Source of the DNA: Sinomicrobium kalidii
Lineage (GTDB): Bacteria > Bacteroidota > Bacteroidia > Flavobacteriales > Flavobacteriaceae
DNA: 64,000 bases
NCBI RefSeq assembly: GCF_021183825.1
Contig: NZ_CP089211.1
Location: 4,322,501-4,386,500, forward strand
Reading direction: 5' to 3'
The position numbers and the translations under genes are program-made. The notes below the pieces were generated by a model that made no database searches, was not told the origin of the DNA, and saw only the letters and a list, made by a program, of their open reading frames with translations. Shown piece after piece: positions 16,749 to 26,841 of the stretch (positions within the stretch are counted from its first letter, which is position 1; every line of letters begins with the position of its first letter).

Positions 16749-17372
16749 ATGAAAGACCCCTGGCTTGAGAAATGGGACGACAGGTACAGCAAGGATGAGT
16801 ATGCCTTTGGCATCCGGCCTAACGACTATCTGAAAGAACAATTAGAGCAATTAGCTGTCGGGAACATCCTTTTTCCGGCGGAAGGGGAAGGACGCAATGC
16901 CGTCTTTGCCGCTAAACTTGGCTGGACCGTTTCCGCATTTGATATCAGTGCTGAAGGAAAAAACAAGGCCCTTCAACTTGCCGGGGCCAATGATGTACAA
17001 ATTGATTACCGGGTAGGCGAGTTGCCGGCATTGAACTATATCCCGGAACAATTTGATGCCGTTGCATTGATTTATGCCCACTTCCCGGCAGACATAAAAT
17101 CAAAATACCACAAGTTGCTTGACCAATATCTTCGCAGGGGCGGAACCGTTATTTTCGAAGCCTTTGGTAAAAAGCACCTCGATTACAGGCTTAAAAACCC
17201 GAAAATCGGCGGACCCAAAGACTTAGCTTCTTTATTTTCAACCGACGAAATAAAGTCGGATTTTTCAAATTATGAAATTATAGCACTGGAGGAAAAGGAA
17301 ATTGAATTGAGCGAGGGCTTATATCACAACGGAAAAGGGTCGGTTGTACGATTTGTCGGACGGAAAAAATAA
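16749..17372 (+). CDS. Class I SAM-dependent methyltransferase (TehB-like)
   Basis: A 207-residue protein starting [20 protein letters not shown]. The Rossmann-fold SAM site appears as [19 protein letters not shown] with the acidic residue in SAFDISAEG, then [11 protein letters not shown] and [13 protein letters not shown]. The closest named relatives, from memory, are TehB-like and thiopurine-type methyltransferases; the substrate is unknown. The ATG at 16749 is chosen because the preceding in-frame ATG at 16710 adds 13 unconserved residues. Confidence 0.8.
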
Positions 17373-17560
17373 AATTCCTCGCATAAAGTGGTTCGGTCAA
17401 TACGAAATCTGATAATGACAAGTCATTTTAAAAACGGGTTGAATATTAACGAATTTGTAGAAAAAGACCCGGAAATTTCCTTTTTCATTTTTCCCGGATT
17501 CAAGAATCTTTTTTGTTGTATATCCATTGTACAGCACAGCTTAAACTCATTCACACAAAA

Positions 17561-17593
17561 TTTTGGATAGTGTCTTTTTATGTTCTACTTTTG
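17561..17593 (+). promoter_or_regulatory. Promoter at the head of the transport cluster
   Basis: A strong match to the Bacteroidota consensus: TTTTG (17561-17565), 20-base spacer, TACTTTTG (17586-17593). The next ATG (17602) is only 8 bases beyond the -7 box, so the transcript would be nearly leaderless. Confidence 0.65.
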
Positions 17594-17601
17594 GAAGCTA
17601 A

Positions 17602-17913
17602 ATGCAACTCGTAGGCAACAAACATAGCATCAGTTTTTTCTTTATCATTGCTTTCTTCCTTTTGAAAGTAGTGAACCTGCATGTTTTTGAGCATATTTCC
17701 GATCAGGATGACGATTTCGGGAACTGTGATATCTGTGCATTGTACACGGTTAATCATCACCATAACCCCATAACGTTTACTCCTGAGATCTCCGAATTTA
17801 CCCCGCCTGTTTTTCCAACAGCCGAACACCTGCCTGCAGTTTATGCGGTTTTGGTGCCGAAAATCCAAACACGGGGATATTATTTTAATAAACCACCACC
17901 TTACCTTTCCTGA
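17602..17913 (+). CDS. Small exported protein with His/Cys cluster, unknown function
   Basis: A 103-residue protein I do not recognise by name. Residues 8-26 form one hydrophobic segment (signal peptide or anchor). A dense set of potential metal ligands follows: HVFEH (His27, His31), DQDDD (34-38), CDIC (Cys42, Cys45) and HHH (52-54). The last 50 residues are Pro-rich and low in structure. It is the first gene after a strong promoter and heads a same-strand run with an ABC ATPase, two TonB-type outer-membrane proteins and two permeases. A metal-binding or metal-sensing envelope role is an inference from residues and context only. Confidence 0.6.
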   Translation: MQLVGNKHSISFFFIIAFFLLKVVNLHVFEHISDQDDDFGNCDICALYTVNHHHNPITFTPEISEFTPPVFPTAEHLPAVYAVLVPKIQTRGYYFNKPPPYLS

Positions 17914-17943
17914 GCAATAATAGCATTTGCGCTGTGAAGAGAG

Positions 17944-17964
17944 CCTGAAAAAGTCCTTTTCAGG
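17944..17964. repeat. Hairpin in the spacer before the ABC ATPase gene
   Basis: Eight-base arms CCTGAAAA and TTTTCAGG enclose a 5-base loop. No T-run follows, so it looks like an attenuating or mRNA-stabilising hairpin and not a full terminator. The rest of the 242-base spacer (17914-18155) shows no gene. Confidence 0.4.
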
Positions 17965-18155
17965 TGAATTCCCTGTTTACATCATTTTTAATACGAGCCA
18001 TACGAGTGACGGCCTCCCGTTATCGCACCGTAACATTTTCGCAAACGGAAGAACTGCATACTTAACGCTGGTCGCATCATGGCAAAAGGGCAGTTGATCG
18101 GCGGAGGGGAATTCCGTTTTCAGGTGTCGTTTATAAACCACTGAAATTCAGATAT

Positions 18156-18851
18156 ATGATAATTACAAAAGACCTTACAAAAAAATACAACGGCTTTACA
18201 GCCTTAAACAAGTTGACCCTGAATATAAACGAAGGTGAGATATTCTGCCTGCTCGGGGCCAATGGAGCGGGAAAGACCACAACCATTAATATTCTCCTGG
18301 GATTTATCGCACCTTCTTCCGGAGAGGCCAGCATCAACGGTTTGTCAGTAACAGGAAATGCCCCGGAAACCAAAAAACACGTGGCCTATATCCCCGAAAC
18401 GGTTACGTTGTACCCCAACCTTACCGGGGTGGAAAATCTGAAATTCTTCTCGTCCCTTGCCGGGTATAAACTTCATCGGGAGGAACTGTCACAATTACTG
18501 CTAAAGGCGGGATTACAGGAAAGCGCCCATCAAAAGCCTTTGCGAAGCTACTCCAAGGGGATGCGCCAAAAGGTGGGAATTGCCATTGCATTGGCCAAAA
18601 ATGCCAAAGTGCTGCTGCTGGACGAACCCATATCCGGCCTGGACCCGAAGGCAGCCAATGAATTTTCGGAGATCCTGAAAGAACTTTCAGCCGGCGGAAC
18701 CACCATTTTAATGGCCACACACGACATTTTCCGGGCCAGGGAAGTCGCCCATCGTATCGGTATCATGAACGAAGGAAACCTCGTCAGTGAACTGGAAGCC
18801 GGTGAAATTTCGGCAAACGAACTGGAGCAACTGTATTTGAAGACCGTATAA
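18156..18851 (+). CDS. ABC transporter ATP-binding protein
   Basis: A 231-residue cytoplasmic ATPase with Walker A GANGAGKTT, signature YSKGMRQK (variant of LSGGQ) and Walker B VLLLDEPISGLDP, ending with the H-loop ATHD. It resembles NosF/CcmA-type ATPases that pair with ABC-2 permeases. Two such permeases are encoded 2.6 and 4.2 kb downstream on the same strand and lack their own ATPase, so this is their likely motor. The substrate is unknown. Confidence 0.92.
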   Translation: MIITKDLTKKYNGFTALNKLTLNINEGEIFCLLGANGAGKTTTINILLGFIAPSSGEASINGLSVTGNAPETKKHVAYIPETVTLYPNLTGVENLKFFSSLAGYKLHREELSQLLLKAGLQESAHQKPLRSYSKGMRQKVGIAIALAKNAKVLLLDEPISGLDPKAANEFSEILKELSAGGTTILMATHDIFRAREVAHRIGIMNEGNLVSELEAGEISANELEQLYLKTV

Positions 18852-18884
18852 AGAGCAGATTCGATTTAATGATTTGATTTATAG

Positions 18885-18935
18885 GATATTGATTCCGACT
18901 TTGTCGGAAGGTTGATGAAGATTGAATTAAAAGTC
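18885..18935. repeat. Intergenic repeat, family B copy 1
   Basis: This copy reads TTGATTCCGACTTTGTCGGA followed by GATTGA-type words. Its reverse complement matches the element at 60396-60447. The core is the small palindrome CCGAC-N3-GTCGG. Further CAATCT words fill the rest of the spacer to 18972. Confidence 0.6.
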
Positions 18936-19003
18936 ATTATAAATCAATCTCATTCAATCTTTCTCAATCTCTTAAAAACAACAGTACCAAAACACAATAA
19001 CTT

Positions 19004-21466
19004 ATGACACGTATATTCACCCTGGCATTCCTTCTTTTCTTCGGTTATCTCCAGGCGCAAACCATTACCGGAAAGGTCACCGATACGGAGACCGGTATTC
19101 CCGTTTTCGGGGCTTCCGTAACCCTTGTGGATATGAACCGCGGAACCGTTACCGACGAAGACGGCAATTTTTCACTGGAAGGAGAGGGGACCATCCTGGT
19201 TTCGTATGTCGGGTATAAAAGCTACCGGGCCAAAGCGGGCAACAATTTTATGAACATCCGTTTGATTCCCGAGATCACTGAATTACAGACCGTTGAGGTT
19301 GTAGGCCGGACATTAAGAAGTTATGACAGCAAATATTCTTTTTCCGCTACCAAAACTGCCATGGAAAACAAGGATATCCCGCAGGCCATAAGTACGGTCA
19401 CCAAAGAACTGATCGCCGACAGGCAGGCTTTCCAACTGGCAGATGCCGTTAAAGCAGTCAGTGGTGTTACGCCTTCCAGCTATTACAACCAGTATAACAT
19501 ACGGGGGATAAGTCAGAATGAAGAAGGGCAGATCATCAATGGGATGCGCACACGGCAGTTTTATTTTTTACAACCCTTAACCACCAATATAGAACGTGTG
19601 GAAGTGATAAAGGGCCCTGCAAGTGCCACTTTTGCCAGTGTAGATCCGGGGGGAAGTATCAATATGGTTACCAAAAAGCCGCTGCCCGTAGAACGGCAAG
19701 AGGTGAGCATCGGGGTAGGCAGTTTCAGTACTTTTATAGGGACACTGGATTTTACCGGCCCTTTGAACGAATCGAAAACGTTGTTATACCGTGTTAACGG
19801 GGCTTACCGGGAGGCACGCTCTTACAGGGATCTGGTCAACAATAAAACCATTCTGGTGTCTCCTTCCTTCAGCTATATCCCCAATGATAAAACCGCTATT
19901 AATGCCGAACTGATCTACAATGACATGAACGGGATGCTGGACCGGGGACAGCCCATTTTCGGGGCTGAAGCCGGGGTTACCGATCTTAAAAGCACTCCGA
20001 TCAGCATGAATCTGAGTGCCCCGAACGACTTTTTCCGGTCGAAAGAACTTATTATCATGGGAAATATCACCCATAAATTCAACTCCAATATCAGTTTCAA
20101 CACCTCCTACATGAAGCAATCGTGGACGGAAGATTTACAGGAACACCGCACTACGGGGGCATTCGCCGTGGATATGAACAATGCACCCGTGACCTCCCTG
20201 GCCGCCATGCAGTTTGTACAACGCGAACAATACTGGAATATAGACAACGTGAGCAGCTATTTCAATTTTGATTTTAAGACCGGGGACTTCGGGCACAAAT
20301 TCCTGGTGGGCTATGACCTGCATTACTGGGAAAAAACAAAGGGCGGCGGACAAAATGCAGCCCGGGGATTCCTCTTGAAGGATGGTTCTGCCGTACGAAC
20401 TTTTGATGTATCCCGTGCAGACGACTATCAAACCGTAGAAATTGACGGGACTACCTTACCCAGGCCGAATGTGGACCATGTTGATCTGAACAACCCCGCC
20501 CACGAGATCAGAAATACCCGGGATTATACGATGAACTCACGTATAGCCATACCCTCGGCGCTTACCACGAATAATGCCGTATACATACAGGAACAATTAA
20601 AGTTTAAACGATGGACCCTGCTTCTCAGCCTCAGGCAGGAGTGGTTCAAAGACATTACCAATTACGAAACCCCGAACAAAACCTCTTTTGAGAACCAGAG
20701 GCTTATACCGAGGATAGGACTTACCTATGCCCTGAATGACAATATTAACATTTACGGTACTTACCTGGAAGGATTTCAGCCCCAGTCGAATACAACAACA
20801 CTTTTACCGAGTACGGCCAACTTTTTATGGTCGGATGTTTCTGCCGCCCTGTTCGACCCTTTGATCAGTAACCTGAAGGAGGCAGGGGCAAAGATCGACC
20901 TGTTCCACAAGCACATGAGCCTGAATCTGTCTGTGTATGAGATCAATCAGAAAAACATACTGATGAGTGCCAACAACCCTTCCCAACCCGATTTGCTGAT
21001 ACAGCGGGGAGCCGACAGGAGCCGTGGTTTTGAGATGGATGTCACGGGCTATATCAATCCGGACTGGCAGGTTATTGCTTCTTATAGCTATATAGATGCC
21101 AAAATCGTAAATGATGCCAATGAAGACCTGGTTGGTCAAAGAAAGGAAAACACCCCGAAAAACAGTGCCAATCTGTGGACCAAGTATAATTTCAGGAACT
21201 CATCAGCGCTGAAAGACCTGGGGATCGGATTTGGCGTACAGCACCAGAGCAGCAAGATCCCCTGGTTCACACGCGATTTTAAAGTGCCGGCGTTTACCGT
21301 CTTTGATGCCGCCGTGTATTATGCGCCGAACAATAGCAATATCCGGCTGGCCCTGAATATGGGTAACCTGTTTAATACCACGTATTGGCTGGGGGCACAG
21401 AATTACCTGCGTTTGTTTCCCGGAGCACCGAGGAACGGTTCACTCACACTGAATTACAGATTTTAA
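19004..21466 (+). CDS. TonB-dependent receptor with siderophore-receptor-like barrel
   Basis: An 820-residue outer-membrane receptor: signal peptide 1-18, carboxypeptidase-regulatory-like domain about 20-90, then plug (MENKDIPQAISTVTKELIAD, GGSINMVTKKP) and a barrel ending NGSLTLNYRF with a terminal Phe. The plug with YNQYNIRGISQNEEGQIING and IERVEVIKGPASATFASVDP is typical of FhuA/FoxA-like siderophore receptors. It would import a large or scarce ligand, classically a ferric siderophore. Here it sits between an ABC ATPase and two ABC-2 permeases, so the ligand may differ. The downstream permease begins 23 bases after its stop. Confidence 0.9.
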   Translation: MTRIFTLAFLLFFGYLQAQTITGKVTDTETGIPVFGASVTLVDMNRGTVTDEDGNFSLEGEGTILVSYVGYKSYRAKAGNNFMNIRLIPEITELQTVEVVGRTLRSYDSKYSFSATKTAMENKDIPQAISTVTKELIADRQAFQLADAVKAVSGVTPSSYYNQYNIRGISQNEEGQIINGMRTRQFYFLQPLTTNIERVEVIKGPASATFASVDPGGSINMVTKKPLPVERQEVSIGVGSFSTFIGTLDFTGPLNESKTLLYRVNGAYREARSYRDLVNNKTILVSPSFSYIPNDKTAINAELIYNDMNGMLDRGQPIFGAEAGVTDLKSTPISMNLSAPNDFFRSKELIIMGNITHKFNSNISFNTSYMKQSWTEDLQEHRTTGAFAVDMNNAPVTSLAAMQFVQREQYWNIDNVSSYFNFDFKTGDFGHKFLVGYDLHYWEKTKGGGQNAARGFLLKDGSAVRTFDVSRADDYQTVEIDGTTLPRPNVDHVDLNNPAHEIRNTRDYTMNSRIAIPSALTTNNAVYIQEQLKFKRWTLLLSLRQEWFKDITNYETPNKTSFENQRLIPRIGLTYALNDNINIYGTYLEGFQPQSNTTTLLPSTANFLWSDVSAALFDPLISNLKEAGAKIDLFHKHMSLNLSVYEINQKNILMSANNPSQPDLLIQRGADRSRGFEMDVTGYINPDWQVIASYSYIDAKIVNDANEDLVGQRKENTPKNSANLWTKYNFRNSSALKDLGIGFGVQHQSSKIPWFTRDFKVPAFTVFDAAVYYAPNNSNIRLALNMGNLFNTTYWLGAQNYLRLFPGAPRNGSLTLNYRF

Positions 21467-21489
21467 GGACACTTTCTAAAACTTTAACC

Positions 21490-22938
21490 ATGATGAAGAA
21501 CGCAGAAGTACGTATCGCAAAGCTGTTCTGGAAAATAACCTTTAAGAACAAGGCAGTTTTTATCCTGACCTTTATCATCGGGATCTTACTGGCCTATGCC
21601 GTTTTTACCGGATGGGAAAATTTCAAGACCCAGGATGAGATCAGGGCTGAATACCAGGAACAGGCCAGGCAGGACTGGCTCGACAATCCCGATAAACATC
21701 CCCACAGAATGGCACATTACGGGCATTTTGCCTTTCGCCCCAAAACCCCGCTAAGTGTTTTTGATTTCGGTATGGAAAGCTTTCTAGGGAGTTCCATTTT
21801 CCTGGAAGCCCATGTCCAGAACCCTACCAACTTTTCCGAAGCGGAGTTTTCCACGGGAATGTTGCGGTTCGGGGAGATAAGCATTGCCATGATCCTGCAA
21901 ACCCTGTTGCCTCTGCTGATCTTCTTTTTAGGATTCAGAAGTATAGCTGCCGAAAGGGAGAACGGCACGCTAAAGATACTCATGAGCCAGGGGTTGAGCC
22001 GGAAGCAGTTATTAGCGGGCAAAAGCCTGGGAATGACCCTTGTAATGTCCACCCTTTATTTTCCGGTGATCCTCACTACGGTACTTCTCTGGACACTGCT
22101 CCAGGAAATGAATATCAGTATGGACGAAACATACAGGCTTTTACTCATTGTAGTGATGTATTTTATTTACCTGTGCATTTTTTGTGTTATAGCGGTCATC
22201 ATTTCCGCACTGAGCAAAACGTCAAAAACAGCGCTTACCTCGTCTATAGGTGTATGGTTGTTGCTTACCATTTTGCTGCCGAGAGCAGGGCAATCCCTGG
22301 GGTCTTATTTATACCGCCCCCCGTCCAAAGCCGGGTTTCAGGCACAGATAGAAAATGACATTTTAAAAACCGGGGACAGTCACAATCCGGATGATCCGCA
22401 TTATCAGGCCCTCAAAGATTCTGTCCTTGCTGTTTACAACGTGGATTCTGTTACGCAGTTACCCTTTAATTACAGCGGACTTGTGATGAAAGAGGGAGAA
22501 AAGATCACCGCGGGAATTCACAATGACCACCTTAAAAGATTACGGGGAATATATGCCCGGCAAAACAGTTTTTCGCGTTACCTGGCCTTTCTCGATCCCT
22601 ATATGGGTATAAAGAACCTGTCCATGGCCCTGTCCGGCACAGATTACAATTCCTTTACTGATTTCCAGGACCAGGCGGAGGAATACAGGTACCACCTGGC
22701 CCAAAGCCTGAATGACCTGCAGATAAAGCACATAAGTAATACGGCCAAGAGTTCGGCAGATCCTGCCAGCAGGCTTGATAAAAGACATTGGGCAGAAATA
22801 GAGGATTTTGAATACCGGCCACTCGGGATAGGGGGTGCCTTCCGGAGCGAACTTATTTCGTTTTTGTCACTCCTGTTCTGGGTATTGCTGCTTGCACTGA
22901 TCCTTAACCGACTCTCTAAAACCTTAAAAGTACTGTAG
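21490..22938 (+). CDS. ABC-2 permease with large periplasmic domain (DUF3526-type), first of two
   Basis: A 482-residue membrane protein. One N-terminal helix (KAVFILTFIIGILLAYAVF) is followed by a roughly 120-residue soluble loop. A cluster of helices comes next (LQTLLPLLIFFLGFRSIAAE and following), then a second large soluble loop (about 280-440) and a final helix near the C-terminus. The sequence RSIAAERENGTLKILMSQGL is the hallmark of NosY-like ABC-2 permeases. Start 21490 is chosen because it gives the first hydrophobic helix and lies just after the receptor stop; a second ATG follows at 21493. It pairs with the permease at 23051. Confidence 0.85.
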   Translation: MMKNAEVRIAKLFWKITFKNKAVFILTFIIGILLAYAVFTGWENFKTQDEIRAEYQEQARQDWLDNPDKHPHRMAHYGHFAFRPKTPLSVFDFGMESFLGSSIFLEAHVQNPTNFSEAEFSTGMLRFGEISIAMILQTLLPLLIFFLGFRSIAAERENGTLKILMSQGLSRKQLLAGKSLGMTLVMSTLYFPVILTTVLLWTLLQEMNISMDETYRLLLIVVMYFIYLCIFCVIAVIISALSKTSKTALTSSIGVWLLLTILLPRAGQSLGSYLYRPPSKAGFQAQIENDILKTGDSHNPDDPHYQALKDSVLAVYNVDSVTQLPFNYSGLVMKEGEKITAGIHNDHLKRLRGIYARQNSFSRYLAFLDPYMGIKNLSMALSGTDYNSFTDFQDQAEEYRYHLAQSLNDLQIKHISNTAKSSADPASRLDKRHWAEIEDFEYRPLGIGGAFRSELISFLSLLFWVLLLALILNRLSKTLKVL

Positions 22939-22951
22939 TGAAAAATGGATA

Positions 22952-23030
22952 CAGGACGATAAGACTTAAGATGTGCGACACAGGAACCAATACACTACTA
23001 CATCTTACGTCCTGAGGTCTTAAGTCCGAA
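22952..23030. repeat. Intergenic repeat, family A copy 2
   Basis: This copy contains GACGATAAGACTTAAGATG and, in reverse, ACATCTTACGTCCTGAGGTC followed by TTAAGTCC, so the spacer can fold into a long hairpin. Its first 36 bases nearly match 24414-24449. Confidence 0.65.
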
Positions 23031-23050
23031 TCATCAAAAAATTAAAGTAA

Positions 23051-24400
23051 ATGAAACTGCTATTTATAAATTTTACCCGCTCCAACAATGTCAAGATAGG
23101 GCTGTCTTTTATCATTCTGGCCGGTGTCATAAGCCTTTTGGTAGGGAAACAGCATATCGAAAAAATAAACCGGAGTGTTGACGAAACGGCCCGGTACCAG
23201 CAGGAGCATATAGAACGCCATGCCGAATACAACAAGGACGACCTGGGGCTGATGCTGTACTATATCAAATTTTCACTGGTAAACAGTACCCCGGCGTTAA
23301 ATGCCCTCTCCATCGGACAGCGCGATGTTAATCCTTCGGTAAAAAGTGTAACCATACGTACTCTTGAAGCCCAGAAATACGATGCAGACCTTAACAATCC
23401 GTACAACCTGCTTATCGGGAATATCGATTTCAGTTTTGTGCTTATCTTTCTGTTTCCGCTGCTTATCATTTCCTTTACCTATAACCTGGTATCCGAAGAG
23501 AAAGAAAGCGGTATCTGGAAGATCATTGCCGTACAGAGTAAAAATCCCCTGGGGTTTGTGCTGAAGGCCTTTGGTGTAAGGCTCCTGGTAACCATCGGGG
23601 GCTTACTGCTTTTGTATGCCATAGCAGTTCCGGTATTAGGTATTGCACCCGATGCGGATTTAGGGAAATTCTTCCTGGCCTCCGTCTTATATATTCTGGT
23701 GTGGTTTGCCATATGTTTTTTTGTGGTGTCGCTGCAAAAAAGTTCCAGTTTTAATGCGATTATCCTGCTCACCATATGGATATTGCTTGTATTTGTCCTG
23801 CCGGCGGCTATCAATAATGATCTGCAGAACAGGTATCCGCTTCCCGAAGCACTTGAAACCACGGTGAAACAACGAAAGGGCTATCACGAAAAATGGGATA
23901 TGGATAAGGAACTGACCATGGACAAATTCTATGCGCATTATCCTCAATTCAAAAAATATGCCCTGCCCGAAGGTGATTTCAGCTGGCTCTGGTATTATGC
24001 CATGCAGCAGATGGGAGATGACGAAGTCTCGGAACAATCAGCAGCATTAAGGAAAAAACTCGGACAAAGGAACACAGCCGCTTCCCGGATCGCACAATTT
24101 ATCCCGACACTCCATTTGCAGCTTTCACTCAACGATATTGCCAAATCCGGATTGGACAATCAATTACGCTTTCTGGACGAAACGGGGCGGTTTCACGAAA
24201 GGCTGAAGCTGCACTTTTATCCGAAAATATTCGGCGGAGCCCCGGTAACTTCTGAAAACTGGGACGATTTTAAGGTAGAAGTTTTTTCTGATGAAACCAC
24301 GTTGAGCAGAACAAGGTTATACACACCACTACTCATTTTTATCGTGGTTTTCAATATTCTCGGCTGGTTTATTTTCAAAAAGCGGTTGCACCGTCTTTGA
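23051..24400 (+). CDS. ABC-2 permease with large periplasmic domain (DUF3526-type), second of two
   Basis: A 449-residue paralogue of the preceding permease with the same plan: one N-terminal helix (VKIGLSFIILAGVISLLVG), a soluble loop, a helix bundle with the NosY-like ITYNLVSEEKESGIWKI-type segment (FTYNLVSEEKESGIWKIIAV), a second long loop and a C-terminal helix (LLIFIVVFNILGWFIF). The two probably form a heterodimer driven by the ATPase at 18156. Many members are annotated from general knowledge as involved in multicopper-enzyme maturation, but that role is not shown here. Confidence 0.85.
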   Translation: MKLLFINFTRSNNVKIGLSFIILAGVISLLVGKQHIEKINRSVDETARYQQEHIERHAEYNKDDLGLMLYYIKFSLVNSTPALNALSIGQRDVNPSVKSVTIRTLEAQKYDADLNNPYNLLIGNIDFSFVLIFLFPLLIISFTYNLVSEEKESGIWKIIAVQSKNPLGFVLKAFGVRLLVTIGGLLLLYAIAVPVLGIAPDADLGKFFLASVLYILVWFAICFFVVSLQKSSSFNAIILLTIWILLVFVLPAAINNDLQNRYPLPEALETTVKQRKGYHEKWDMDKELTMDKFYAHYPQFKKYALPEGDFSWLWYYAMQQMGDDEVSEQSAALRKKLGQRNTAASRIAQFIPTLHLQLSLNDIAKSGLDNQLRFLDETGRFHERLKLHFYPKIFGGAPVTSENWDDFKVEVFSDETTLSRTRLYTPLLIFIVVFNILGWFIFKKRLHRL

Positions 24401-24401
24401 C

Positions 24402-24480
24402 GAATTGATGTAAGACGATAAGACTTAAGACATACGACACACAGGAACCGAATCAGTCCTAAGTCCCAAATTAATGACTT
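24402..24480. repeat. Intergenic repeat, family A copy 3
   Basis: This copy contains GACGATAAGACTTAAGACA and ends with AGTCCTAAGTCCC. It nearly repeats the first 36 bases of the copy at 22955. Confidence 0.65.
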
Positions 24481-26841
24481 ATGAAATTTAGCTTTTATCT
24501 GTTATTGAACCTGTTGTTGTTATCCCATACAGCAACAGCCCAGCAAAAAAAGGTGACCGGGATGGTTTCGGATGCACAGGGCCGGCCATTGCCCGGGGCG
24601 ACCGTTATAGTGAAGGAAAGTACAAACGGTACACAAACGGACTTTGACGGCAATTATGCCATCGATGTTACCGATGGGGCCGTATTGGTATTCTCCTATA
24701 TCGGTATGTCCACCGTAGAAATCGAAGTAAAAGAATCATCCCGTATAGACGTTGTATTGAGAGAAGATACACAGAAACTGGACGAAGTGGTTGTAACCTT
24801 TAAAGAGCCCCTTGTTGAGGCAGGTAAAGGGAAGGTTACCTTCAACGTTGCTTCTTCCGCTACGTCGAGCGGAGTGTCTTCCTTCGACCTGCTGAAAAAA
24901 ATTCCGGGAGTGAGTATCGGGCAGAGCGACGAGATCGTTTTGAGAGGAACAACCGGGGTCAACGTGATGATCGACGGCAAGATGAGCTATCTTTCGGGCA
25001 ACCAGTTAGGCATATTGCTCAGGGGATTAAGCGCCGAAGACATTGACAAAGTGGAGCTCATCACCAACCCTTCCGCAGCTTATGATGCTGCCGGAAATTC
25101 GGGGATCATCAATATCGTTACCAAAAAGAACAGGGCCAGAGGGTATGCTTTGAGTTTAAAAAGTAGTGTGTCCAAAGGGAGGTCGTGGATGAACAACCAG
25201 AATATTTCGGGCAGTGTCAATAGCGAGCGATGGAATGCCTACGCCTCTTTCGATTACAACACGCCACATCGTTTTCGTAAAAGTAAAAGCGGAAATACCA
25301 TTGTGGAGAACGAAGAGCAGATCATATTGAACAGGGAAAACCAAAACCCGTTCGACATCAATTTCTATACCTGGAAGGCCGGGGGCGACTGGCAATTTGC
25401 TCCCAAGCACCGGATCGGTGTGCATTATCACGGTTATTTTGATGATTTTACAAGTTACAAAACCTCGTCGATCCGCAAAGAACGGACGGACGGCAGCCTG
25501 TTTTCCGATGTGTATTCTACATATGACCTGGAGGAGCCCTATCATTACGACGCTATAAACATGGATTACCGGTTTGACATCGATACCACAGGAAAAAAAA
25601 TAACCGCAGATGCCCGGTACATTTCGTATCGCAATTTTTCGGACGGATTGATGGAGGGAAAGCATTATGATGCCGAAGGGCAGTTGCTCCGTACCCATAC
25701 CATGCGTATACATCAACCGGGTTTTATCAAAATAAAGTCGGTACAGGCCGATGCCGACCTGCCGTTCCCGGAAGTGGGCTTTAAGGCCGGATTAAAGTTT
25801 GCCAAGGCGAGCAATGACAACAATTTCCGTTCCGAAGAAAAAACAGGGGATGATTTTGTGGAGCTCCCCGAACTCACCAATCATTTTAAGTACAAGGAAC
25901 AGATCAGTGCGGCTTATGTGTCGGCCTCCGGAACATTGGGGAACGCCGAGATTGAAGCCGGGATAAGGTTGGAGCACACCCGGGCGGAAGCATTGTTGCT
26001 GGACGGTTCGTTTGACAACGATTGGGAATATACCCGTTTGTTCCCCAATCTGTCTTTAGCCTATTATTTGGGCGATGACCACAAACTCGATCTGGCCGTC
26101 AGCCGGAGGATCAACCGCCCGTCGTATTCCAGCCTGAACCCCGTACGCTGGTATAACGACGAATACTTCTATTATTCCGGGAATCCGGAGCTTGTCCCCG
26201 AAATGGGATGGTTGTTTTCGGCTTCCTATACCTTCATGAAAAAATATATTCTTTCCGCCGAATACAGCAAACGCAACAATTATATTTCATACAATTTGTC
26301 TTACGATGATAACGGAGTGACGGTCAGAAGCCGGAGCGCCAATTTCAGTCACTTCGACCGGGTAGACTTTAACCTGATCGCCCCTTTTCCGATTGCTGAT
26401 TTTTGGGAAATACAATTTTTCGGCGGACTCAACTATACCACTTACCCGCTTTCGGAGGCGGGGAAGGAGCGCGACCTCGGCAAATGGGCCGCAACACTAT
26501 CGGTACAGCAACAACTGAAATTCCTGGAACATTATTCGGCAGATATTTCTGTGAAATACACCACGGCCGAACTGCGCGGGGTGTATATGACCAAAGCGGT
26601 GTTTTTTACGGATCTCGGGATTAAACGTTCTTTTCTGGACGGTAAACTTGATGCTGTTTTTACACTGAGCGATGTTTTTAACGGTTACTGGATGTACGGA
26701 ACCTCCCAGAGCAGCTTAACAGATTATTATTATGAAGACAAACCCGACTCCAGGAGGGTCGGGCTGACCCTTCGGTACCACTTTGGCGGAAACCTCATTA
26801 AGGAAAAGACAACGAAAACAGATGAGCAAAAACGTCTGTAA
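24481..26841 (+). CDS. TonB-linked outer-membrane beta-barrel family protein
   Basis: A 786-residue protein with a signal peptide (1-20, ending TATA), a carboxypeptidase-regulatory-like domain (about 22-95, QKKVTGMVSDAQGRPLPGAT), a plug (FDLLKKIPGVSIGQSDEIVL, IDKVELITNPSAAYDAAGNS) and a barrel of the OMP_b-brl_3 type. This group is close to TonB-dependent receptors but has the shorter IDGK-type plug (VMIDGKMSYLSG). It is the last gene of the same-strand transport run. The end has a soluble tail (LIKEKTTKTDEQKRL) after the barrel. The ligand is unknown. Confidence 0.9.
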   Translation: MKFSFYLLLNLLLLSHTATAQQKKVTGMVSDAQGRPLPGATVIVKESTNGTQTDFDGNYAIDVTDGAVLVFSYIGMSTVEIEVKESSRIDVVLREDTQKLDEVVVTFKEPLVEAGKGKVTFNVASSATSSGVSSFDLLKKIPGVSIGQSDEIVLRGTTGVNVMIDGKMSYLSGNQLGILLRGLSAEDIDKVELITNPSAAYDAAGNSGIINIVTKKNRARGYALSLKSSVSKGRSWMNNQNISGSVNSERWNAYASFDYNTPHRFRKSKSGNTIVENEEQIILNRENQNPFDINFYTWKAGGDWQFAPKHRIGVHYHGYFDDFTSYKTSSIRKERTDGSLFSDVYSTYDLEEPYHYDAINMDYRFDIDTTGKKITADARYISYRNFSDGLMEGKHYDAEGQLLRTHTMRIHQPGFIKIKSVQADADLPFPEVGFKAGLKFAKASNDNNFRSEEKTGDDFVELPELTNHFKYKEQISAAYVSASGTLGNAEIEAGIRLEHTRAEALLLDGSFDNDWEYTRLFPNLSLAYYLGDDHKLDLAVSRRINRPSYSSLNPVRWYNDEYFYYSGNPELVPEMGWLFSASYTFMKKYILSAEYSKRNNYISYNLSYDDNGVTVRSRSANFSHFDRVDFNLIAPFPIADFWEIQFFGGLNYTTYPLSEAGKERDLGKWAATLSVQQQLKFLEHYSADISVKYTTAELRGVYMTKAVFFTDLGIKRSFLDGKLDAVFTLSDVFNGYWMYGTSQSSLTDYYYEDKPDSRRVGLTLRYHFGGNLIKEKTTKTDEQKRL

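Follow-up and report, generated by a model that had tools for sequence, protein, structure and literature searches.

A conserved five-gene operon of Sinomicrobium kalidii combining a TonB-dependent receptor with two DUF3526 permeases, and its possible role in the capture of a zinc chelate

The stretch of DNA analyzed here, which we call the window, comprises 64,000 nucleotides (nt) at positions 4322501-4386500 of the 5.36-Mb single-contig genome of Sinomicrobium kalidii, and our subject is a set of six genes within it that encode a small head peptide, an ABC ATPase, a TonB-dependent receptor (TBDT), two ABC-2 permeases of the DUF3526 family (PermA and PermB) and an outer-membrane protein (OMP). 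The first five of these genes form a conserved unit. We favor, with modest confidence, the reading that this five-gene operon captures a scarce metal in the form of a chelate and that the metal is most likely zinc. A preliminary description of the window had proposed a single trans-envelope system whose head gene would suit a metal; a trans-envelope metal unit is still the best reading, and the head gene belongs to a type of metal-ligand peptide that heads such operons.

The evidence for the unit comes from a comparison of the locus among named Bacteroidota genomes. We took the best 80 of 423 confirmed PermA profile matches, which gave 79 intact loci (the truncated locus L108 was left out of the 79); these loci, like the 87 head peptides described below, are mostly from Flavobacterium and are not independent, and L166 is counted twice. 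The order ATPase-TBDT-PermA-PermB is present in 74 of the 79 loci, three (Spirosoma and Larkinella) have the order TBDT-PermA-PermB-ATPase and two (Dyadobacter) have the set without a receptor. The order spans Flavobacteriaceae, Weeksellaceae, Cytophagales and Chitinophagaceae, so the expectation of the preliminary description that the order would be kept in related genomes was borne out for these four genes. Among the best 80 of the 423 matches, the nearest relatives at the locus are Sinomicrobium pectinilyticum and a Galbibacter.

The OMP had also been taken as a fixed member, which the comparison does not sustain: its gene occurs at only one of the 79 loci, that of S. pectinilyticum (79% identity), and we rejected it as a core member. 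A distant cluster (L188) has the order TBDT, DUF4374 lipoprotein, ATPase, PermA, PermB, OMP, with tandem copies of the palindromic box described next lying ahead; its PermA is 28% identical to that of the window, while its OMP is 58.9% identical to the window's over 768 amino acids (aa) and overlaps the end of PermB. Because of this kindred gene abutting the permeases, we regard the OMP as a recurring accessory partner.

In 68 of the 79 loci a palindromic box, TTGCAAC-N3-GTTGC[AG], precedes the first gene when up to two mismatches are allowed, and 99 half-site-shuffled control palindromes were found at a mean of 1.1 and a maximum of 14 of the same loci. Loci L085 and L095 were scored as boxless in this count; their boxes lie further upstream of their operons. 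In the genome of S. kalidii itself there are 17 box sites at the same threshold, against three for a reversed control pattern, and the surroundings of 12 of the 17 were read. Five lie before a COG0523 gene, before folE, or between a DtxR-type/ZIP pair and a TonB receptor gene; one precedes a lanthipeptide precursor gene, and a weak one lies between FUR and P-type ATPase genes. A weight-matrix scan adds a tandem pair, missed by the pattern search, between merC and an operon of LolD, FtsX, a companion protein and FUR. The merC/FUR divergent promoter carries a tandem box pair in both searched genomes of g52, a genus that we took as Flavobacterium-like from its near-identical head peptides and neighbors and in which single boxes precede head peptides. 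In Larkinella, a box, two COG0523 genes and a FUR-like gene (match 0.00029, just under Pfam's cut-off) stand directly ahead of a receptor that is 66% identical to that of the window. Zur commonly controls COG0523 genes, folE-type genes and genes for TonB receptors (PMC6103462), for which reason we read the box as a probable Zur operator of Bacteroidota.

Among these sites, tandem boxes in L148 (6297-9455) of S. kalidii separate a DtxR-type regulator and ZIP transporter from a 777-aa TonB receptor, and in L207 (4646-7302) a weak box lies in the interval between another FUR gene and the P-type metal ATPase gene that comes after it.

The preliminary description held that no substrate is known for this combination of genes, a statement that does not hold up: loci kindred to that of the window have a probable Zur box and genes of the zinc type, and a counterpart has been published. 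In Caulobacter, znuGHI (an ABC-2 ATPase and two permeases) and the adjacent znuK were reported to be repressed by Zur on the basis of microarray data, lacZ fusions and electrophoretic mobility shift assays, and znuK to be required under zinc starvation (PMC4176598). Caulobacter vibrioides was the only one of our 14 control genomes with DUF3526, so ZnuGHI likely belongs to the same family. The set in the window shares with ZnuGHI/ZnuK one ABC ATPase, two ABC-2 permeases and an adjacent TonB receptor, the last being present at 77 of the 79 loci. The Caulobacter Zur operator is described as overlapping the -10 region (PMC4176598), and likewise, in the Flavobacterium loci examined, the box runs into the end of a TAnnTTTG promoter element. 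The two systems differ in that the window's set is one operon with the receptor inside it, a leader peptide in front and no Zur operator at its promoter, and in the operator type, which is TTGCAAC-N3-GTTGC in the window's kin versus the GTTAT type in Caulobacter. ZepA (PMC10957091) was also considered and is a different system.

The head gene has no Pfam or NCBIfam match, and we characterized it by its position and motifs. When the small open reading frame (ORF) was chosen by position only, both a CxxC motif and a C-terminal PP motif (a basic residue or Asn, any residue, then PP, within the last 20 residues) were present in 65 of 72 loci; this is the unbiased count, since the peptide label used otherwise required the PP motif. 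Eight of the 80 loci, truncated L108 included, have no ORF of the right size; of the seven loci outside these two counts, a peptide is listed in L075, L081, L106, L122 and L125 and none for L085 and L127. Only 74 of 1034 size-matched ORFs of the same loci have the PP motif and 71 of these 74 also have CxxC, so that PP-motif ORFs are almost all head peptides. In a set of 87 peptides (L034, which is the same locus as L051, is excluded) the C-terminal motif is RAPP in 65, RPPP in seven, KGPP in six, KPPP in four, RGPP in four and RDPP in one, and exactly 45 residues separate the two motifs in 57 of the 65 RAPP peptides. The peptides fall into two classes. The first is RAPP-like, with a spacing of 42-47 residues and a box at 61 of 76 peptides; the second, which includes that of the window, ends in [RK]PPP with a spacing of 49-53 residues and has a box at none of 11.

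These features recall CruR (Bp2923, DUF2946) of Bordetella, which has a CxxC motif and RAPP with 45 residues between them; its copper sensing is reported to relieve a ribosome stall, upon which Rho stops transcription before the TonB receptor gene, and increasing the spacing by five strongly reduced the copper response (PMC9426467). Head peptides of the Flavobacterium type look like CruR, and that of the window resembles a CruR-like leader of the long-spaced [RK]PPP class. The shared features are a small CxxC protein with a hydrophobic N-terminus (86 of the 87 peptides pass this test, and the window's has a hydropathy of 2.41), a basic-x-PP end, the first position before a TonB receptor operon, a long gap to the next gene and, in most of the window's kin, RAPP and a spacing of 45. 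The window's peptide differs in having KPPP in place of RAPP, a spacing of 51 (counted to the Lys of KPPP; 50 if counted to the Asn) and no match to the DUF2946 profile, and the linked genes of its kin point to zinc and not to copper. Among 10 peptides scanned with that profile only two scored, one from Flavobacterium (0.021, under the cut-off) and that of Eleftheria (2e-6). RAPP/RGPP leader ORFs have been reported before TonB-related genes throughout Gram-negative bacteria (PMC12992588), which means that head peptides of this kind are not new in themselves; they too are located upstream of TonB-receptor genes, and the main text of that paper does not mention zinc, Zur or DUF3526. A further box-preceded head peptide, ending SLRAPPIFTI, lies in a g52 genome (L247, 1107-1460, minus strand) ahead of a lipoprotein-like ORF and not of a receptor.

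The gap between the head peptide and the next gene has a median of 243 nt and a range of 40-814 nt in 88 loci, close to the 242 nt of the window. We considered an RNA element in this gap and rejected it: the Rfam search gave two sub-threshold matches, both ahead of the set, and in 12 aligned Flavobacterium gaps, read by eye, only the peptide tail and the next start are conserved. In this respect, and in the length of the gap, the set differs from CutF of Rhodobacter, an exported metal-ligand protein that likewise has a C-terminal proline motif and lies ahead of metal genes, and which is reported to act by way of a stem-loop adjoining the start, so that a copper oxidase gene is translated more (PMC9973294).

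The wider DUF3526 family was surveyed in 392 Bacteroidota genomes, 62 of which contain it. We fetched 47 DUF3526 stretches, 31 strong and 16 weak matches, with eight g52 genomes and some weak places omitted. The 31 strong clusters have an ATPase in 28 cases, a TonB receptor in 10, COG0523 in 12, a head peptide in 12 and DUF5916 in 10. A zinc-type gene (COG0523, FUR, merC, folE or a 145-aa companion protein that has no Pfam match) lies within 8 kb in 14 of the 31 strong clusters and in none of the 16 weak ones, and a TonB receptor is found in one weak cluster. If up to two mismatches are allowed, 19 of 31 strong clusters and 5 of 16 weak ones have a box at any place in the stretch; with at most one mismatch, by one of two patterns, the counts are 9 of 31 and 0 of 16. 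The S. kalidii genome has no match to the ABC-3 permease (ZnuB) of ZnuABC systems, which 202 of the 392 genomes have.

Several observations weigh against the zinc reading, the first of which concerns the window itself. It has no box ahead of the set (the best score at 17200-18200 is 5.8, compared with a site median of 22.3), nor do its two nearest kin (best scores 3.9 and -3.0) or the four Weeksellaceae loci. In a tree of PermA (79 of 126 sequences) the window, S. pectinilyticum and the Galbibacter form one group inside a clade with 100/99 support, within which the order of branches is not settled. This placement speaks for zinc, as the clade also holds PermA sequences of box-bearing sets (Arcicella aurantiaca and a Cytophagales bacterium), together with boxless ones from Cellulophaga/Flagellimonas; on the tree a sequence is labeled as box-bearing wherever a box lies within 7.5 kb, which makes the label noisier than the upstream count. 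The simplest account is that the box was lost within the clade that contains Sinomicrobium and Galbibacter. The box has its own weaknesses as a mark of zinc: it has chance matches, five of the 12 sites read in S. kalidii and 10 of the 15 box stretches read in g52 being at unrelated genes; the gene after FUR in g52 resembles, by eye, an Nramp (manganese/iron) transporter; one box pair in S. kalidii lies beside a DtxR-type gene; and the box-preceded folE is of the PF01227 type (GTP cyclohydrolase I), while the folE named in the Zur review is folE2 (PMC6103462). Finally, the KPPP of the window does not have the arginine that is reported to be irreplaceable in other arrest peptides, in which Ala-to-Pro is partly tolerated (PMC12992588). 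KPPP should therefore stall poorly, although lysine may be tolerated here, since it recurs in 10 of the 87 peptides. With no box, KPPP instead of RAPP and a spacing of 51 instead of 45, both the metal and the control of the window's copy are uncertain.

Other points against zinc bear on iron, which is the alternative that fares best, although we consider it rather unlikely. According to this explanation a ferric (xeno)siderophore enters through the receptor, and the ABC-2 pair either finishes the uptake or recycles the empty ligand. The receptor passes the TIGR01783 siderophore subfamily model, and its best-matching solved structures are siderophore and metallophore receptors; the earlier likening to FhuA and FoxA holds at this subfamily level but not at that of the equivalog models, for which the scores were 210.5 of 803 bits (FhuA) and 140 of 1300 bits (FoxA). 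The beta-proteobacterial Eleftheria has a DUF2946-TBDT-ATPase set with two DUF3526 genes and a Fur-box-like TGAGAATGATCTCTCA, judged by what we take to be the Fur consensus, and two DUF3526 sets (L188 and L214) include DUF4374 lipoproteins, presumably of the XusB siderophore-binding family. From the Eleftheria box and the two DUF4374 sets, iron use is likely somewhere in the family, and the DUF3526 family probably has iron among its substrates in addition to zinc, the latter by inference. Systems of the XusABC type are xenosiderophore systems, and the combination of TonB receptor and DUF4374 lipoprotein in L188 and L214 is like them; the window's set differs in having no DUF4374 gene. The lack of a zinc-type box in the window also suits iron. 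Against it, close orthologs stand under the same box as the COG0523/merC/FUR genes, the DUF4374 locus L188 itself has tandem boxes, and the upstream regions of 11 boxless loci have no common Fur-like motif. A common alternative operator was rejected for these 11 regions, in which the best 8-mer occurs in three, no better than in shuffled sequences, and which hold two weak A/T-rich palindromes only.

Copper is an improbable substrate. It would require the head peptide to be a copper sensor like CruR and the set to import copper or to serve the maturation of a copper site, which the CxxC and C-terminal PP design and the long gap would fit. The preliminary description had drawn a link to NosY that proved real at the sequence level, as residues 131-262 of PermA, and only these, are related to it (E 1.5e-4; profile 8.9e-10). 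NosDFY is a copper-site maturation complex, from which the window's set differs by the extra DUF3526 region and the second permease, and neither NosD nor other nos genes were found among the 10 proteins scanned at the locus. The neighbors identified in the window's kin are of the zinc-homeostasis type, with no search having been aimed at copper genes, the window's peptide departs from the RAPP and spacing of CruR, and copper-related RAPP leader genes are described as absent from Bacteroidota (PMC12992588).

A third alternative, of slighter probability still, is that a peptide or an emptied chelator leaves the cell through the ABC-2 pair, possibly for immunity, and that the receptor is merely co-regulated. 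ABC-2 permeases are mostly exporters, a further point against zinc uptake, and LanFEG are ABC-2 systems that export peptides for immunity. The PermA profile also matches the peptide exporter PmtD, and S. kalidii has a second DUF3526 pair beside a lanthipeptide cluster (described below). That cluster, however, already has its own C39 exporter, lanthipeptide genes occur, among the DUF3526 clusters listed, only in the three of this genus, for which the seeds came from S. kalidii, and in 74 of the 79 loci the receptor gene stands within the operon, between the ATPase and permease genes. That the genes are unrelated neighbors, each with its own control, is hardly credible: the window's spacers of 80-242 nt and the absence of the OMP from 78 of the 79 loci would fit, but the order is kept across four taxonomic groups and in Galbibacter the PermA stop and PermB start share 1 nt (TAATG).

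For capture of a metal chelate, the mechanism that we infer would run as follows; the conservation, the box and the peptide features are direct observations, and the substrate, the direction of transport and the stalling are drawn from them. The receptor would bring the metal chelate into the periplasm, as its family suggests, and the two permeases, driven by the one ATPase, would take it from there. The invariant histidines H72, H76 and H108 of PermA may contact the metal or its ligand, and the complex would then be moved inward or stripped of its metal. Judging from the orthologs, expression would be raised when the metal is scarce. In most of the relatives that we examined this would be achieved by a Zur-type repressor acting on TTGCAAC-N3-GTTGC together with a CruR-like leader, with CxxC as the sensor and RAPP as the stall motif. 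The Sinomicrobium/Galbibacter branch, with no box and the long-spaced KPPP, would be either more constitutive or sensed in another way, and the OMP would serve as an accessory outer-membrane partner.

The coordinates of the features are collected in Table 1.

Table 1. Features of the gene set, with positions counted from the first nucleotide of the window
Feature	Position	Strand	Remarks
Bacteroidota-type promoter, TTTG-N20-TACTTTTG	17562..17593	+	Ends 8 nt before the head-gene ATG
Head peptide, 103 aa	17602..17913	+	Hydrophobic N-terminus; H27/H31; CDIC at residues 42-45; KPPP at residues 97-100
CxxC motif codons	17725..17736	+	CDIC, from residue 42
KPPP codons, at the site of the RAPP arrest motif	17890..17901	+	From residue 97
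Gap between head peptide and ATPase gene, 242 nt	17914..18155	+	No Rfam match
ABC ATPase, 231 aa, ZnuG-like	18156..18851	+	PF00005 (ABC_tran), E 4.2e-31
Spacer between ATPase and receptor genes, 152 nt	18852..19003	+	Partial matches at two other places in the genome
TonB-dependent receptor, 820 aa	19004..21466	+	CarboxypepD_reg, Plug and barrel; TIGR01783; ZnuK-like by position
ABC-2 permease A (PermA), DUF3526, 482 aa	21490..22938	+	Residues 131-262 related to NosY
HPHRMAHYG codons in PermA	21697..21723	+	H72, H76 and H108 invariant in 33 aligned sequences
ABC-2 permease B (PermB), DUF3526, 449 aa	23051..24400	+	Pfam
Outer-membrane protein (OMP), OMP_b-brl_3, 786 aa	24481..26841	+	Pfam; accessory

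The six ORFs of the set are all on the plus strand at the coordinates first given for them, and Pfam agrees with the assignment of an ABC ATPase, two DUF3526 permeases (E 2.3e-31 and 1.7e-27) and two outer-membrane proteins. Alignment to relatives places the start of PermA at 21490 and not at 21385. All six genes are under purifying selection as judged by the ratio of nonsynonymous to synonymous substitution rates (dN/dS), which against S. pectinilyticum and Galbibacter is 0.23-0.24 for the head gene and 0.05-0.11 for the ATPase, receptor and permease genes, and is 0.10 for the OMP gene against S. pectinilyticum only. The flanking genes encode DinB-like, methyltransferase, beta-lactamase-fold and DUF1028 proteins according to Pfam, and no tie between them and the set was seen in the relatives listed.

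A strong promoter and only short spacers had been described for the set. There is a Bacteroidota-type promoter at the head gene, by a consensus that we assume for this phylum, and S. pectinilyticum (L051) and Galbibacter (L052) have an identical -7 part, TACTTTTG, but promoters of this type are not unusual by themselves (three in the window compared with 1.96 expected) and sigma-70-like sites in the window are at chance level (26 compared with 25.3 expected). Not all of the spacers are short: 242 nt follow the head gene, 152 nt precede the receptor gene, and PermB is flanked by gaps of 112 and 80 nt; the gap between the ATPase and receptor genes is 14 nt in S. pectinilyticum (L034), compared with the 152 nt here. 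An exact 16-nt repeat lies in the two spacers around PermB, at 22956-22971 and 24415-24430, with no other copy in the window at up to two mismatches (0.04 expected).

A second set, PermA-PermB-TBDT, lies at 334.8-346 kb of the S. kalidii genome (L032 and L146) and is 27-32% identical to that of the window. It is divergent from genes for a C39-peptidase exporter, a split lanthipeptide dehydratase (LanB) and a LanC-like cyclase, of class I, and two weaker boxes lie between the set and the lanthipeptide genes. A 59-aa precursor-like ORF has a His/Cys core, GLGNLSHPTHTEPTD...C..C, and a box with one mismatch 82 nt upstream; in two congeners (L035/L215 and L036/L216) the ORF is 63 aa long, and an exact box again lies 82 nt ahead of it. 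This lanthipeptide is a candidate zincophore, and no other lead of ours to a peptide zincophore is as strong. In the 18-kb stretch there is no ATPase gene of the type that belongs to the set, so the window's ATPase might serve both sets; the gene is lacking at L032, 4600-5510, while in the congeners L035 and L036 it follows the receptor gene. An aspartoacylase-family gene with a box-like site nearby is next to the lanthipeptide precursor gene in L215 (4410-5450, minus strand) and L216 (2193-3239, plus strand), the assignment resting on AstE_AspA_cat for L215 and made by eye for L216. A remnant DUF3526 gene with several stops is also present in S. kalidii at 1748243-1748437 (L033, L005).

Other members of the family have further arrangements. 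DUF5916 proteins recur beside DUF3526 sets (L043, L095, L169, L171 and others), often where there is no TonB receptor, and are perhaps an alternative outer-membrane partner. In L044 (5364-7304) a COG0523-like (CobW-type) protein is apparently fused to the ATPase in one 646-aa frame. Seven of 12 plasmid matches were opened, two of them without annotation. Plasmids of Spirosoma, Hymenobacter, Aureibacter and Eleftheria carry a TonB receptor, an ATPase and two DUF3526 genes, with a box at the set of the Spirosoma oryzicola plasmid and a gene annotated as an M14 metallopeptidase following DUF3526 on the Hymenobacter plasmid (L211); on a Methylocystis plasmid an ATPase and a pair of permeases are encoded among mobile elements, and the stretch contains no receptor.

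Counterparts of the transporter parts and of the leader type have been published. Among openly licensed PMC papers, where a full-text search for DUF3526 returned no paper, we found no description of the combination, of the box or of the two classes of peptide. We also put forward, as a speculative extension that may well be wrong, that Bacteroidota have a zinc-chelate machine independent of ZnuABC that is gated by Zur and by a zinc-responsive RAPP peptide, that the class of the window shed the Zur box and uses the [RK]PPP peptide alone, and that the paralogous set imports a self-made, box-controlled, His-rich lanthipeptide zincophore.

From the analysis, DUF3526 permeases, and receptors that are annotated only as siderophore receptors, acquire a probable metal and a control circuit, and a Zur operator is proposed for Bacteroidota. 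It raises the question of whether zinc, in addition to copper, is sensed by leader peptides of the RAPP type. Although the loci are related and not independent, the two classes of peptide would be a natural experiment in which transcriptional control and control by a nascent peptide replace each other.

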